DNA from: Branchiibius hedensis
Lineage (GTDB): Bacteria; Actinomycetota; Actinomycetes; Actinomycetales; Dermatophilaceae
DNA length: 64,000 nt
NCBI RefSeq assembly: GCF_900108585.1
Contig: NZ_UESZ01000001.1
Location: 558,001-622,000 of the forward strand
Direction: 5' to 3'
This document shows, piece after piece, positions 59,531-64,000 of this stretch. The notes beneath the pieces are model-generated. The model was not told where the DNA came from. It saw nothing but the letters and a program-made list of their open reading frames with translations, and did not search any database. Each line of letters opens with the position of its first letter. Positions within the stretch are counted from its first letter, which is position 1. The position numbers and the translations under genes are program-made.

Positions 59531-61234
59531 ATGAGCGAAGGTACGCCGGACATCAAGCCCCGCAGCCGCGACGTCACCGATGGTCTGGAGAAGACCGCCG
59601 CGCGAGGGATGCTGCGAGCGGTCGGCCTGACCGACGAGGACTTCGCCAAACCCCAAGTGGGAGTGGGCAGTTCGTGGAACGAGATCACCCCGTGCAACCT
59701 GTCGCTCGACCGCTTGGCGAAGGCGGTCAAGGACGGTGTCTTCGCCGCCGGCGGGTACCCGCTCGAGTTCGGGACGATCAGTGTCTCCGACGGCATCTCG
59801 ATGGGCCACGAAGGGATGCACTTCTCGCTGGTGAGCCGCGAGATCATCGCCGACTCTGTCGAGACGGTGATGAGTGCCGAACGCCTCGACGGCTCAGTGC
59901 TTCTCGCCGGTTGCGACAAATCGCTGCCGGGCATGTTGATGGCCGCCGCGCGACTCGACCTGGCCAGCGTCTTCCTCTACGCCGGCTCGATCCTGCCCGG
60001 TATCGCCAAGCTCTCCGACGGCTCCGAGAAGCAGGTCACGATCATCGACGCGTTCGAAGCGGTCGGCGCCTGTGCAGCCGGTCTGATGTCGCGGGACGAC
60101 GTCGACGCGATCGAGCGCGCCATCTGCCCCGGTGAAGGTGCGTGCGGCGGGATGTACACCGCCAACACGATGGCCTCGGTCGCCGAAGCGATCGGGATGT
60201 CGTTGCCCGGCAGCGCCGCCCCGCCCGCGACCGACCGCCGCCGCGACGGGTTCGCCCGCAAGTCAGGGGAGGCGGTCGTGGAACTCCTGCGAAAGGGCAT
60301 TACCGCCCGCGACATCATGACCAAGGAGGCCTTCGAGAACGCGATCGCCGTTGTCATGGCGTTCGGCGGCTCCACCAACGCGGTGCTCCATCTGCTCGCG
60401 ATCGCCCACGAGGCCGATGTCGACCTGAGCATCGACGACTTCGCCCGGATCGGCGCCAAGGTGCCGCACCTGGCCGACGTGAAACCGTTCGGTGCGTTCG
60501 TCATGACCGACATCGATCGTGTCGGTGGCGTGCCTGTCGTCATGCGGGCCTTGCTCGACGCGGGTCTGCTGCACGGCGACTGTCTCACCGTGACCGGTAG
60601 GACGATGGCCGAGAACCTCGCCGACATCCGCCCGCCGGACGTCGACGGCAAGGTCCTGCGTGCGATGGCATCGCCGATCCACCCCAGCGGCGGGATCACC
60701 ATCCTGAAAGGTTCACTCGCGCCCGAGGGCGCTGTCGTGAAGTCTGCTGGCTTTGACAACGACGTATTCGAAGGCACCGCAAGGGTTTTCGATGGCGAGC
60801 GGGCGGCCATGGATGCTGTCGAGGACGGCTCGTTGAAGGCCGGCGACGTCGTCGTGATTCGGTACGAAGGGCCGAAGGGTGGGCCGGGGATGCGCGAGAT
60901 GCTCGCGGTCACCGGCGCGATCAAGGGTGCCGGGCTGGGCAAGGACGTCTTGCTGCTGACCGACGGCCGGTTCTCCGGGGGTACGACGGGTCTGTGCGTC
61001 GGACACGTAGCTCCCGAAGCCGTGGACGAAGGCCCGATCGCGTTCGTGCGGGACGGCGACCGCATCCGCCTCGACGTCGCGCAGGGGACTCTCGACCTCC
61101 TGGTCGATGACGCGGAACTGGCCGATCGGCGTACGTCGGGCGTCAAGCACCCAGAGGCGAAGTACACCCGTGGGGTGCTGGCCAAGTATCGAAAGCTGGT
61201 GGGCAGCGCTTCGGGCGGGGCGGTCTGCGACTGA
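59531..61234 (+). CDS. ilvD: Dihydroxy-acid dehydratase
   Basis: Third step of valine, isoleucine and leucine synthesis. 567 residues with the iron-sulfur Cys residues in [12 protein letters not shown] and [13 protein letters not shown] and a third in the N-terminal part ([12 protein letters not shown]), plus [11 protein letters not shown] and the C-terminal [19 protein letters not shown]. Active-site Ser in the C-terminal domain fits the IlvD/Edd family. TAGACT (59519-59524) is 6 nt before the ATG, so the transcript is probably leaderless. It precedes the ilvB leader, an expected grouping. Confidence 0.97.
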
Positions 61235-61334
61235 CGAAGAGCGAGCGCGGAGGTGTCCTGAGCGCAGCGAAGGGCGCCGGAGTGTGAGGTCGAGGAGTCG
61301 CAGCATGGGCTCTGCGACTGACGAATAGCGAGCG
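61224..61334. repeat. Intergenic repeat pair with REP-like element
   Basis: A 24-nt direct repeat starting TCTGCGACTGACGAA occurs at 61224-61247 and again at 61311-61334 with one mismatch. Between them lies CCTGAGCGCAGCGAAGG, an imperfect palindrome of the kind scattered in many high-GC genomes. The first copy includes the end of ilvD. This fills most of the gap after ilvD; nothing coding is seen in 61335-61465. Confidence 0.55.
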
Positions 61335-61468: not shown

Positions 61469-61498
61469 TTGACCATCTGGCGACCCGAGGCACACACT
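61469..61498 (+). promoter_or_regulatory. Probable ilvB operon promoter
   Basis: TTGACC (61469-61474) as -35 and CACACT (61493-61498) as -10, spacer 18 bp. The GTG of the leader peptide is 7 nt after the -10, so transcription should begin at or next to this codon. A short inverted repeat (GAGAT/ATCTC) lies just upstream. Confidence 0.6.
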
Positions 61499-61505
61499 GA
61501 CTGAC

Positions 61506-61544
61506 GTGGCACGCATTCTCGTACTCCGCAAGCGCGCAAGCTGA
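61506..61544 (+). CDS. ilvB operon leader peptide
   Basis: A 12-codon open frame, GTG to TGA, encoding (V/M)[11 protein letters not shown]. Four branched-chain codons in a row (Ile-Leu-Val-Leu, 61515-61526) are followed by basic residues and a stop that lies inside a hairpin. Leader peptides of this kind control ilvB operons in corynebacteria and streptomycetes by ribosome stalling (established knowledge). It lies upstream of the attenuator and ilvB. Confidence 0.85.
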
Positions 61545-61597
61545 CCAGATCAGCAAGCGCGCCTACCCTCACTGCCCCAGCGGCTGAGGGTTTTTTT
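61532..61597 (+). terminator. Transcription attenuator of ilvB (pause hairpin, antiterminator, terminator)
   Basis: Pause hairpin: GCGCGC-AA-GCTGA (61532-61544) pairs with TCAGC-AA-GCGCGC (61550-61562). Terminator: CCCTCA and GCC (61566-61576) pair with GGC and TGAGGG (61582-61590), followed by seven T (61591-61597). Antiterminator: TCAGC (61550-61554) can instead pair with GCTGA (61583-61587), which breaks the terminator. A ribosome stalled on 61515-61526 would cover the 5' arm of the pause hairpin and favour the antiterminator. Confidence 0.85.
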
Positions 61598-61648
61598 ATG
61601 CCCCGCGAGCGCCATACCGACCCAGCAGACCAAGAACAGGTGACCACC

Positions 61649-63535
61649 GTGACGAATGTGCAGGCCCCCAAGGCGGCGTCCCGCATCCCGAGCCCGGCCC
61701 AGGTGACGCCCTTGCAGCACAAGGCGCGTGACCGCAGCGCCGGAGACGTCCCGCAGGCGCTGCCGGACACCCCTCCGACCCCGCCGATCCAGGTAACGGG
61801 TGCGCAGAGTCTGGTCCTGTCGCTGGAGTCCGTCGGCGTGGACACCGTGTTCGGCATCCCCGGCGGCGCGATCCTGCCGGCCTACGACCCGCTGCTGGAC
61901 TCGGTGAAGGTCCGCCACATCCTGGTGCGACACGAGCAGGGCGCCGGTCACGCCGCCGAGGGCTATGCCTCTGCCACCGGCAAGGTCGGTGTGTGCATGG
62001 CCACCTCCGGTCCGGGTGCCACCAACCTGGTCACTGCGATCGCGGACGCGTTCCTCGATTCGGTGCCGATCGTGGCGATCACCGGTCAGGTCAATTCCAA
62101 GACCATTGGTACCGATGCCTTCCAGGAGGCCGACATCCGCGGCATCACGATGCCGATCACCAAGCACAACTTCTTGATCACCAACGCCGACGAGATCCCA
62201 TCCGCGATCGCCGCGGCGTTCCACATCGCAGCGACCGGCCGACCCGGCCCGGTCCTGGTGGACATCAGCAAGGACGCCCTGACGGCCAAGACCACCTTCT
62301 CCTGGCCGCCGCAGGTCGATCTGCCGGGCTACCGCCCGGTGACGCGTCCGCACCCCAAGCAGATCAAAGCGGCCGCCGAACTGATCCGCGCGGCCAAGAA
62401 GCCAGTCCTCTATATCGGGGGAGGAGCGATCCGCTCGGGGGCCAGCGAGTCTCTGAAGGAGCTCGTCGAGCTCACCCAGATCCCGCTGGTGACCACGCTG
62501 ATGGCGCGCGGCGCCGTGCCGGACACCCACCCGCTGCATCTCGGGATGCCCGGGATGCACGGGTCGGTTCCGGCCGTGACCGCACTGCAGAAGGCTGATC
62601 TGCTGATCACGCTCGGCGCGCGGTTCGATGACCGGGTGACTGGTGATCTCGCGTCGTTCGCACCCGAGGCCAAGGTGATCCACGCCGACATCGACCCGGC
62701 CGAGATCAGCAAGAACCGCCAGGCCGACGTGCCGATCGTCGGTGACATCGACGAGGTCGTGCGCGAACTGATCGGGGCGCTGAAGGACGACATCGACCCC
62801 AGCCGCTTCACCCCCTGGCGGGAGCGTACGACGGGTTGGAAGCGGGACTTCCCGGTCGGCTACACGACTCCCGAGGAGGGTTTGTCACCCCAGTACGTCA
62901 TCGAACGGATCGGTGCGCTGACCGGCCCGGACGCGACGTACGTTGCGGGTGTCGGTCAGCACCAGATGTGGGCGGCCCAGTTCGTTGACTACGAGCGCCC
63001 GAACTCGTGGTTGAACTCCGGTGGCGCCGGCACGATGGGCTACTCGGTGCCTGCCGCGATGGGCGCCAAGACCGCCGAACCGGACCGGACGGTCTGGGCG
63101 ATCGACGGTGACGGTTGCTTCCAGATGACCAACCAGGAGCTCGCGACCTGCGTCATCAACAACATCCCGATCAAGGTCGCCATCATCAACAACTCCAGTC
63201 TGGGCATGGTGCGCCAGTGGCAGACGCTGTTCTACAACGAGCGCTACTCCAACACCGATCTGCACACGGCCATCGGCGCCCGGGTCCCGGACTTCGTCAA
63301 ACTGGCCGACGCGTACGGTTGTGTCGGACTGCGCTGCGAACGCGCCGAGGACGTCGACGCCACGATCGCCAAGGCGCTGGAGATCAACGACGTTCCCGTC
63401 GTGATCGACTTCGTCGTGGAGCGTGACGCCATGGTGTGGCCGATGGTGCCGGCCGGTGTCAGCAACGACATGGTGACCGTGGCGCGCTCGATGGCCCCGG
63501 TGTGGGACCGCGAATCCGAAGGTGAGGACGACTGA
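61649..63535 (+). CDS. ilvB: Acetolactate synthase, catalytic subunit
   Basis: Thiamine diphosphate enzyme making acetolactate or acetohydroxybutyrate. GTG 61649 with an AGGTG ribosome binding site gives 628 residues; ATG 61598 also opens the frame, but it abuts the terminator T-run and has no ribosome binding site. Domains: N-terminal pyrimidine-binding part with the catalytic Glu in [18 protein letters not shown], central FAD-type domain ([13 protein letters not shown]), and the diphosphate part [14 protein letters not shown] to [17 protein letters not shown]. The N-terminal 50-residue Pro-rich extension is poorly conserved. Stop overlaps the ilvN ATG by 1 bp. Confidence 0.96.
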
Positions 63536-64000
63536 TGGCCAAGCACACGCTCTCGGTGCTGGTGGAGAACAAACCCGGTGTGCTCGCCCGGATCGCCGGC
63601 CTGATCTCGCGCCGCGGCTTCAACATCGACTCCCTCGCGGTGGGCGAGACCGAGCACACTGAGATCTCGCGGATGACCATCGTCGTGGACGTCGATGAGT
63701 TGGTCCTGGAGCAGGTCATCAAACAGCTCAACAAGCTGGTCGAGGTCCTGAAGGTCGTCGAGTTGGAACCCGATGCCGCCGTCCAGCGCCAGATCGTGCT
63801 GATCAAGGTGCGCGCCGACGGTACGACGCGTGGCCAGATCCTCGAGCTGACCCAGATGTTCCGGTGCAACGTCGTCGACGTCACCGCCGACTCGGTGGTC
63901 ATCGAGGCGACCGGGGCACCGAACAAGTTGATCGCGCTGCTCGAAGTGCTTGAACCGTACGGCGTGAAGGAACTCGTCCAGTCCGGCCTGGTGGCCGTCG
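63535..64000 (+). CDS. ilvN: Acetolactate synthase, regulatory subunit (partial)
   Basis: Regulatory subunit that binds valine and activates IlvB. 155 residues are visible before the window ends; only the last few should be missing. N-terminal ACT domain: HTLSVLVENKPGVLARIAGL, SRRGFNIDSLAVGETEH; C-terminal domain: QRQIVLIKVRADGTTRGQIL, DVTADSVVIEATG, and the start of the final helix region. Coupled to ilvB by TGATG overlap. ilvC probably follows outside the window. Confidence 0.96.
   Translation, partial: MAKHTLSVLVENKPGVLARIAGLISRRGFNIDSLAVGETEHTEISRMTIVVDVDELVLEQVIKQLNKLVEVLKVVELEPDAAVQRQIVLIKVRADGTTRGQILELTQMFRCNVVDVTADSVVIEATGAPNKLIALLEVLEPYGVKELVQSGLVAV

Follow-up and report, generated by a model that had tools for sequence, protein, structure and literature searches.

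A strongly conserved attenuator, very probably with a leaderless leader peptide, upstream of ilvBN in Branchiibius hedensis and its actinobacterial family

Leaders rich in isoleucine, leucine and valine codons and followed by terminators have been described upstream of ilvB in Corynebacterium, Mycobacterium and Streptomyces (Seliverstov et al., 2005, PMC1262725; this article and the others below are cited from excerpts of their text). As excerpted, the genome list of that study is without genera of the family analysed here, and promoter spacing is absent from its text. In Streptomyces lividans TK24, the leader of ilvL/ilvBHC, MRTRILVLGKRVG, is reported to be transcribed leaderless (PMC8079986). 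In Corynebacterium glutamicum, a 'start of translation', which evidently stands for the start of transcription, is placed at a distance of one nucleotide from the start codon of the leader, and the mRNA is treated as leaderless (PMC11857589). In Mycobacterium tuberculosis, the change of LVVI to AAAA in the ilvB1 leader abolished induction, and the model proposed there is that a ribosome at these codons lets an anti-terminator form, which is prevented by a ribosome at the stop codon (PMC13236596). A leaderless leader peptide is not new, as it is in print for both S. lividans and C. glutamicum. For the latter species, the title of a paper by Morbach et al. in 2000 reportedly already refers to a leader peptide being made with no ribosome binding site.

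We analysed the region upstream of ilvB in a stretch of 64,000 nucleotides (hereafter, the window) of the 4.0 Mb genome of Branchiibius hedensis, in which the gene order around the leader is ilvD, leader region, ilvB and ilvN (Table 1). The named ilvB matches closest to that of the window are from Phycicoccus, Flexivirga and Janibacter, and a search of the genome with the leader region gives a single match. A sequence-only reading had proposed an attenuator at 61469-61597, and all the elements that it named were recovered: a -10 element 7 nt upstream of the leader frame, a 12-codon frame with four branched-chain codons in a row, and a terminator with a T7 run lying directly before the first ATG in the ilvB frame. 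Our analysis indicates that 61469-61597 is probably an attenuator that places transcription of the ilvBN operon under ribosome control, with a leaderless leader and, as the 'on' hairpin, a structure called P1 that precedes the terminator hairpin T. The attenuator is real, strongly conserved and of a type already known in other actinobacteria; in the open-licence literature, no paper on it was found for the family of the window. Simple consensus scans for promoters and terminators at the leader region return none of either, and the terminator stem carries a bulge. Further upstream, a 24-nt direct repeat of 96% identity (TCTGCGACTGACGAAGAGCGAGCG) is observed, with one copy at 61224-61247, from the end of ilvD, and the second 87 nt further on, at 61311-61334, in the spacer before the leader.

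Table 1. Features of the ilvD-ilvBN intergenic region and of the flanking genes (positions in the window)
Feature	Position	Strand	Basis
ilvD (dihydroxy-acid dehydratase), upstream gene	59531..61234	+	TIGR00110 above cut-off
-35 element TTGACC	61469..61474	+	sequence; conserved TTGAC in relatives
-10 element CACACT, 7 nt before leader GTG	61493..61498	+	sequence; conserved hexamer in relatives
Leader peptide, 12 codons, GTG 61506-61508 to TGA 61542-61544	61506..61544	+	sequence and family comparison
Control codons ATT CTC GTA CTC (Ile-Leu-Val-Leu)	61515..61526	+	sequence; codon conservation in relatives
Hairpin P1: 61532-61537/61557-61562 and 61540-61544/61550-61554	61532..61562	+	folding, covariation
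Intrinsic terminator hairpin T: 5' arm 61565-61575, 3' arm 61580-61591	61565..61591	+	folding, covariation
U-tract T7, directly before ATG 61598	61591..61597	+	sequence
TG in fixed register after terminator stem	61599..61600	+	87/94 relatives
ilvB (acetolactate synthase large subunit)	61598..63535 as open frame	+	NF005860 and TIGR00118 above cut-off
ilvN (acetolactate synthase small subunit)	63535..63999, extends beyond window	+	TIGR00119 above cut-off

A strong ilvB match was found in 114 of the 119 family genomes searched, and 110 loci, window included, were analysed, the matches of G046, G079, G109 and G118 being left out. A search for the peptide and the T-run, which makes no use of promoter information, detects the leader at 105 of these 110 loci. 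Two further leaders, VALKCVVPPRA (L115) and VARTDVVPGRAG (L181), were missed by the regular expression and added by inspection, so that the arrangement is present at 107/110 family ilvB loci. Of the others, L117 is cut by a contig end, and L193 and L194, two loci of one genus, have no such leader. After the start codons of L139 and L182 had been moved by hand to an upstream GTG, the 105 leaders were reduced to 94 non-redundant ones at 90% identity; the swap and partition tests were run on 91 of them (L173, L176 and L195 excluded), and the alignment comprises 27 of 70 diverse sequences, 48 of these 70 being listed. The layout of leader and hairpins also recurs elsewhere in the phylum, where 49 of 80 loci passed a score; as this score rewards promoter-like spacing, the phylum-wide set does not count here as support for leaderless starts. 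Four of the 49 belong to the family of the window, and the remaining 45 divide into 41 with two stems, one with a single stem and three without a T-run.

The leader frame of the window reads GTG GCA CGC ATT CTC GTA CTC CGC AAG CGC GCA AGC TGA. It resembles the S. lividans system by its I-L-V-L run, its very probably leaderless character and the hairpins and U-rich stretch before ilvB, and differs from it by its GTG start and its tail (PMC8079986, as excerpted); P1 also is 31 nt long in the window, as compared with 54-68 nt in the Streptomyces loci that we folded. Family leaders come in two lengths, either VARILVLP followed by the stop or window-like forms with a tail (RRAS, QRA), and the stop codon is found, depending on the relative, either at +24 or between +33 and +42. 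The control run includes rare codons. The Val codon (61521-61523 in the window) is GTA in 92/94 leaders, as compared with 34 of 1256 Val codons (2.7%) across the 31 long open frames of the window, and the second Leu position is CTT in 67/94 leaders, versus 3.2% of Leu codons, the window itself having CTC. Among the 45 loci outside the family, GTA makes up 44 of the 74 Val codons in the control run. Rare codons at control positions fit a sensor, and GUA and CUU have already been named conserved control codons in C. glutamicum (PMC11857589, in the text available). The earlier proposal that ilvB is attenuated through branched-chain codons in a leader peptide is supported.

The promoter hexamers of the window are separated by 18 nt. 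A TTGAC motif is located at -35, -36 or -37 from the leader start in 56, 34 and 4 relatives, respectively, that is, in all 94 non-redundant ones, and a -10-type hexamer, with a non-A first base, A in second place and T in sixth, begins at -12 or -13 in 91/94. When the leaders are anchored on the start codon, A is found at -11 in 85/94 and T at -7 in 84/94. Textbook promoters with elements at these distances would start their transcripts right at the start codon. The -10 hexamer of the window is one base further upstream than the family register, so that its transcription start would be 61505 or 61506. A Shine-Dalgarno-like stretch is absent from the 20 bases before the start in 49/105 leaders and is scattered from -20 to -4 in the rest. 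This constant spacing between hexamers and leader frame makes it very probable that the peptide begins at the transcript's 5' end; the suggestion that it does so, made from the window alone, gains comparative support from promoter spacing in 94 relatives.

When 61506-61600 is folded, a weak 5' hairpin, P1, a bulged T and then T7 are predicted, at -40.9 kcal/mol versus -27.0 +/- 2.7 in shuffles (z -5.1, 0/200 as low). The pause hairpin that had been announced around the leader stop codon is indeed present, with the stop in its 5' arm, but it is larger than described, having at its base a GCGCGC helix (61532-61537/61557-61562). In 94/94 relatives, two stems and no more are predicted for the segment between +21 and the T-run, and a strict layout, defined by P1 start, T end, spacing and stability, is found in 92/94 as compared with 31/1880 dinucleotide shuffles. 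Both stems are also favoured by arm swapping among the 91 relatives, in which own partners are preferred with z -24.5 for P1 and z -15.7 for T, and 0/2000 permutations are as good. In the 27-sequence alignment, 12 of 22 pairs are changed on both sides, in 53 cells versus 21.6 in shuffles, and 93.5% of cells pair in P1 and 78.1% in T; RNAalifold recovers the P1 base and parts of T. The conserved letters are those of the leader codons and the helices. P1 varies in length from 27 to 86 nt across the family, and it starts at +24 to +27 in 92/94 relatives. As this start is fixed while the stop codon shifts by several codons, P1 appears to be set by the control codons.

How the two hairpins respond to translation was assessed by masking: the RNA was hidden up to the expected front edge of the ribosome, placed by a general rule 13 bases beyond the start of the A-site codon, and pair probabilities were then computed in the 91 relatives. 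The mean computed probability of P1 is 0.97 with the ribosome at the Ile or first Leu codon, 0.76 at Val, 0.40 at the second Leu and 0.01 at the stop codon. That of T stays at 0.93-0.96 at all ribosome positions, and at 0.97 throughout in the window; T exceeds 0.8 in 84/91 relatives at the stop and in 86/91 without a ribosome, and 89 to 91 of the 91 are above that value when the ribosome is stalled, the lowest value of all being 0.36. In these computations it is P1, and not T, that depends on ribosome position. As P1 is predicted to be present on stalling and open at the stop, the reading is that a stall turns the operon on and that termination follows when there is none. On the strength of this model we read P1 as an 'on' hairpin, which is also the polarity put forward for C. 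glutamicum and M. tuberculosis; we infer from it both the response of the attenuator to amino acids and the antagonism of P1 towards T. This reading agrees with the models for these two species and conflicts with leader-codon mutants of S. coelicolor. The latter, reported to be without effect, are presumably those of Craster et al. in 1999.

The mechanism could then operate as follows. RNA polymerase would start at GTG 61506, or one base before it, and the leader would be translated from its leaderless end. When charged tRNA for Ile, Leu or Val runs low, the ribosome would halt at ATT CTC GTA CTC with its front edge at the foot of P1; P1 would form, termination would fail and ilvB would be transcribed. 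When the amino acids are plentiful, the ribosome would instead reach the stop codon inside the P1 5' arm and hold P1 open, and the terminator would act, ending transcription in the U-tract. The M. tuberculosis ilvB1 leader, with its LVVI uORF and an abundant short terminated transcript, is described with the same polarity; it differs by its leader sequence and by the end of its U-tract, at +126 as compared with about +92 in the window (PMC13236596, excerpted text).

Against the main reading, P1 and T are predicted together in naked RNA and, in these calculations, do not exclude one another thermodynamically; bases that both could claim are also rare, as set out below. The gap between the two is 0-3 nt in 94/94 relatives (0 nt in 55, 1 in 21, 2 in 15 and 3 in 3) and likewise in the 41/41 two-stem loci outside the family, which include Streptomyces, Mycobacterium, Cellulomonas and Saccharothrix. 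This close spacing is weakened as stand-alone evidence, because 631 of the 896 shuffles with two stems are also within 3 nt, which makes it partly a habit of minimum-energy folds. A bold and rather unlikely possibility is that throughout the phylum, and with no alternative pairing, P1 may block the abutting T by adjacency, a rigid helix hindering the entry of T into RNA polymerase. If this were true, an absence of leader translation would give high, not low, read-through, which is the opposite of the trp rule.

The best of the other explanations, although improbable in our view, is the 'fast' attenuator proposed for C. glutamicum, in which P1 and T share foot bases and the stalled ribosome decides which of them holds these. 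The window family is like the C. glutamicum ilvBNC leader and the ilvB-II motif in having a branched-chain leader treated as leaderless and a hairpin that touches the terminator (PMC11857589 and PMC10272879, both from excerpts), and the 0-3 nt gap in all members would suit such sharing, even if it counts for less in view of the shuffles. A shared GCC trinucleotide is reported in C. glutamicum, three bases being common to antiterminator and terminator (PMC11857589, as excerpted), whereas bases that both P1 and T could claim by contiguous extension occur in only 9/94 relatives; in the window, 2 nt separate the end of P1 (61562) from the start of T (61565). The overlap reported for C. glutamicum is therefore not the rule in the family. 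As the hairpins touch but seldom share bases, an 'either-or pairing' fails to cover most members. The excerpts on C. glutamicum also report, as a further difference, a third hairpin, an antiantiterminator (PMC11857589).

A classical three-way attenuator fares somewhat worse and is judged unlikely. As the sequence-only reading had it, stalling would free the segment 61550-61554 from 61540-61544 and let it pair with 61583-61587, breaking the terminator. The complementarity on which this was built stands, the segment being perfectly complementary over five bases to both partners in the window (GCTGA/TCAGC/GCTGA), but the antiterminator itself is unsupported: there is no clear covariation, and forcing it costs 8 to 21 kcal/mol relative to the free fold. 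Across the 91 relatives, the P1 3' half slightly prefers its own T 3' half (7/2000 permutations as good), a preference of the longer P1 3' piece that relatedness could cause, whereas the inner arm alone is without clear preference (279/2000 permutations as good). Among the 22 sequences, window included, whose terminator 5' arm is like that of the window (CCCTCA), no preference is left, with 2648/5000 permutations as good for the inner arm and 1103/5000 for the longer piece. In the alignment, 63.7% of cells pair in the 27 sequences versus 60.6% when shuffled, a value reached by 22/500 shuffles; the covariation score, however, is reached by 32/500 shuffles, and a slide by one column scores equally. 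When the pairing is forced, the energy is -11.5 versus -22.0 kcal/mol for the free fold from +33 (10.5 worse), -8.6 versus -16.8 from +39 (8.2 worse) and -20.1 versus -40.9 for the whole RNA (20.8 worse). Finally, the T 5' arm, which is made first, is more than half paired to upstream RNA in 0/91 relatives with the ribosome at Ile, the first Leu or Val, in 12/91 at the second Leu and in 11/91 at the stop. Other upstream partners were considered for the T 5' arm. A trp-type 2:3 pairing with the P1 3' arm is weaker for own than for swapped arms (1993/2000 permutations as good or better), and pairing with the leader codons or the P1 5' arm is rejected on the arm-swap test, which yields no clear upstream partner.

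It could also be that the element is a constitutive terminator or determines RNA stability, the leader peptide having no regulatory part, and we consider this very unlikely. Such a role would account for T being predicted, on average, at all ribosome positions, and for the ineffectiveness of leader codon substitutions in S. coelicolor, in work cited in the excerpted text of PMC1262725. It is at variance with a control run that is conserved at the codon level, with rare GTA and CTT, with a P1 start tied to the control codons (+24 to +27, 92/94) and not to the stop, and with the M. tuberculosis ilvB1 leader, which responds through such codons (PMC13236596, excerpted text). A ligand-binding riboswitch, for instance for ppGpp, is hardly credible as the controller of ilvB: ppGpp riboswitches do control ilvB in some bacteria (PMC10272879, as excerpted), but no family listed in Rfam reaches its gathering score in the window, and the letters conserved here are those of leader codons and helices.

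The position of ATG 61598 is occupied by a start-like codon in 93/94 relatives, but only in 16/93 does its reading frame continue into ilvB; it is out of frame in 58/93 and in frame but stopped in 19/93. An ATG or GTG after the U-tract is thus rejected as a general ilvB start; in the window too, ilvB probably starts elsewhere, and GTG 61649, with AGG 8 nt upstream, may be a likelier codon than ATG 61598. A small second gene beginning at the codon after the U-tract is unlikely, as the frames that do not lead into ilvB are anywhere from 1 to 81 codons long, and in the Streptomyces loci the place is taken by TTG.

The same place carries a TG in fixed register: with the last stem G counted as 0, T is at +9 and G at +10 in 87/94 family members and in 34/44 phylum-wide loci, 4 of these from the family of the window. 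The consensus for RNA polymerase pausing is G-10 Y-1 G+1. The TG fits this consensus, or else a start codon after the GGAGGG stretch. Of the 137 GGGTTTTTT sites in 40 family genomes, 49 have the TG, and many of them are ilvB attenuators themselves. A scan of these genomes for other terminators also picked up attenuators on the opposite strand.

The only other GGGTTTTTT site of the B. hedensis genome belongs to a similar attenuator before leuS (L197:1419-1550, that is, G000:C1 at about 780,110-780,240). Its leader is MQRVLGLSTPRRSR, with TAACCT at -12 to -7, and its upstream hairpin abuts the terminator with zero bases between and with the same TG register. The 487 aa leuS fragment has TIGR00396 as its best match, below cut-off because the fragment is cut. 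For S. lividans, a leuS leader that is leaderless has already been published (PMC8079986, in the text available).

With these results, a form of control over branched-chain amino-acid synthesis that was already known, leaderless leader included, is extended to a whole actinobacterial family. They also bring 94 diverged copies together in one set, which makes the old puzzle of how P1 bears on T testable.
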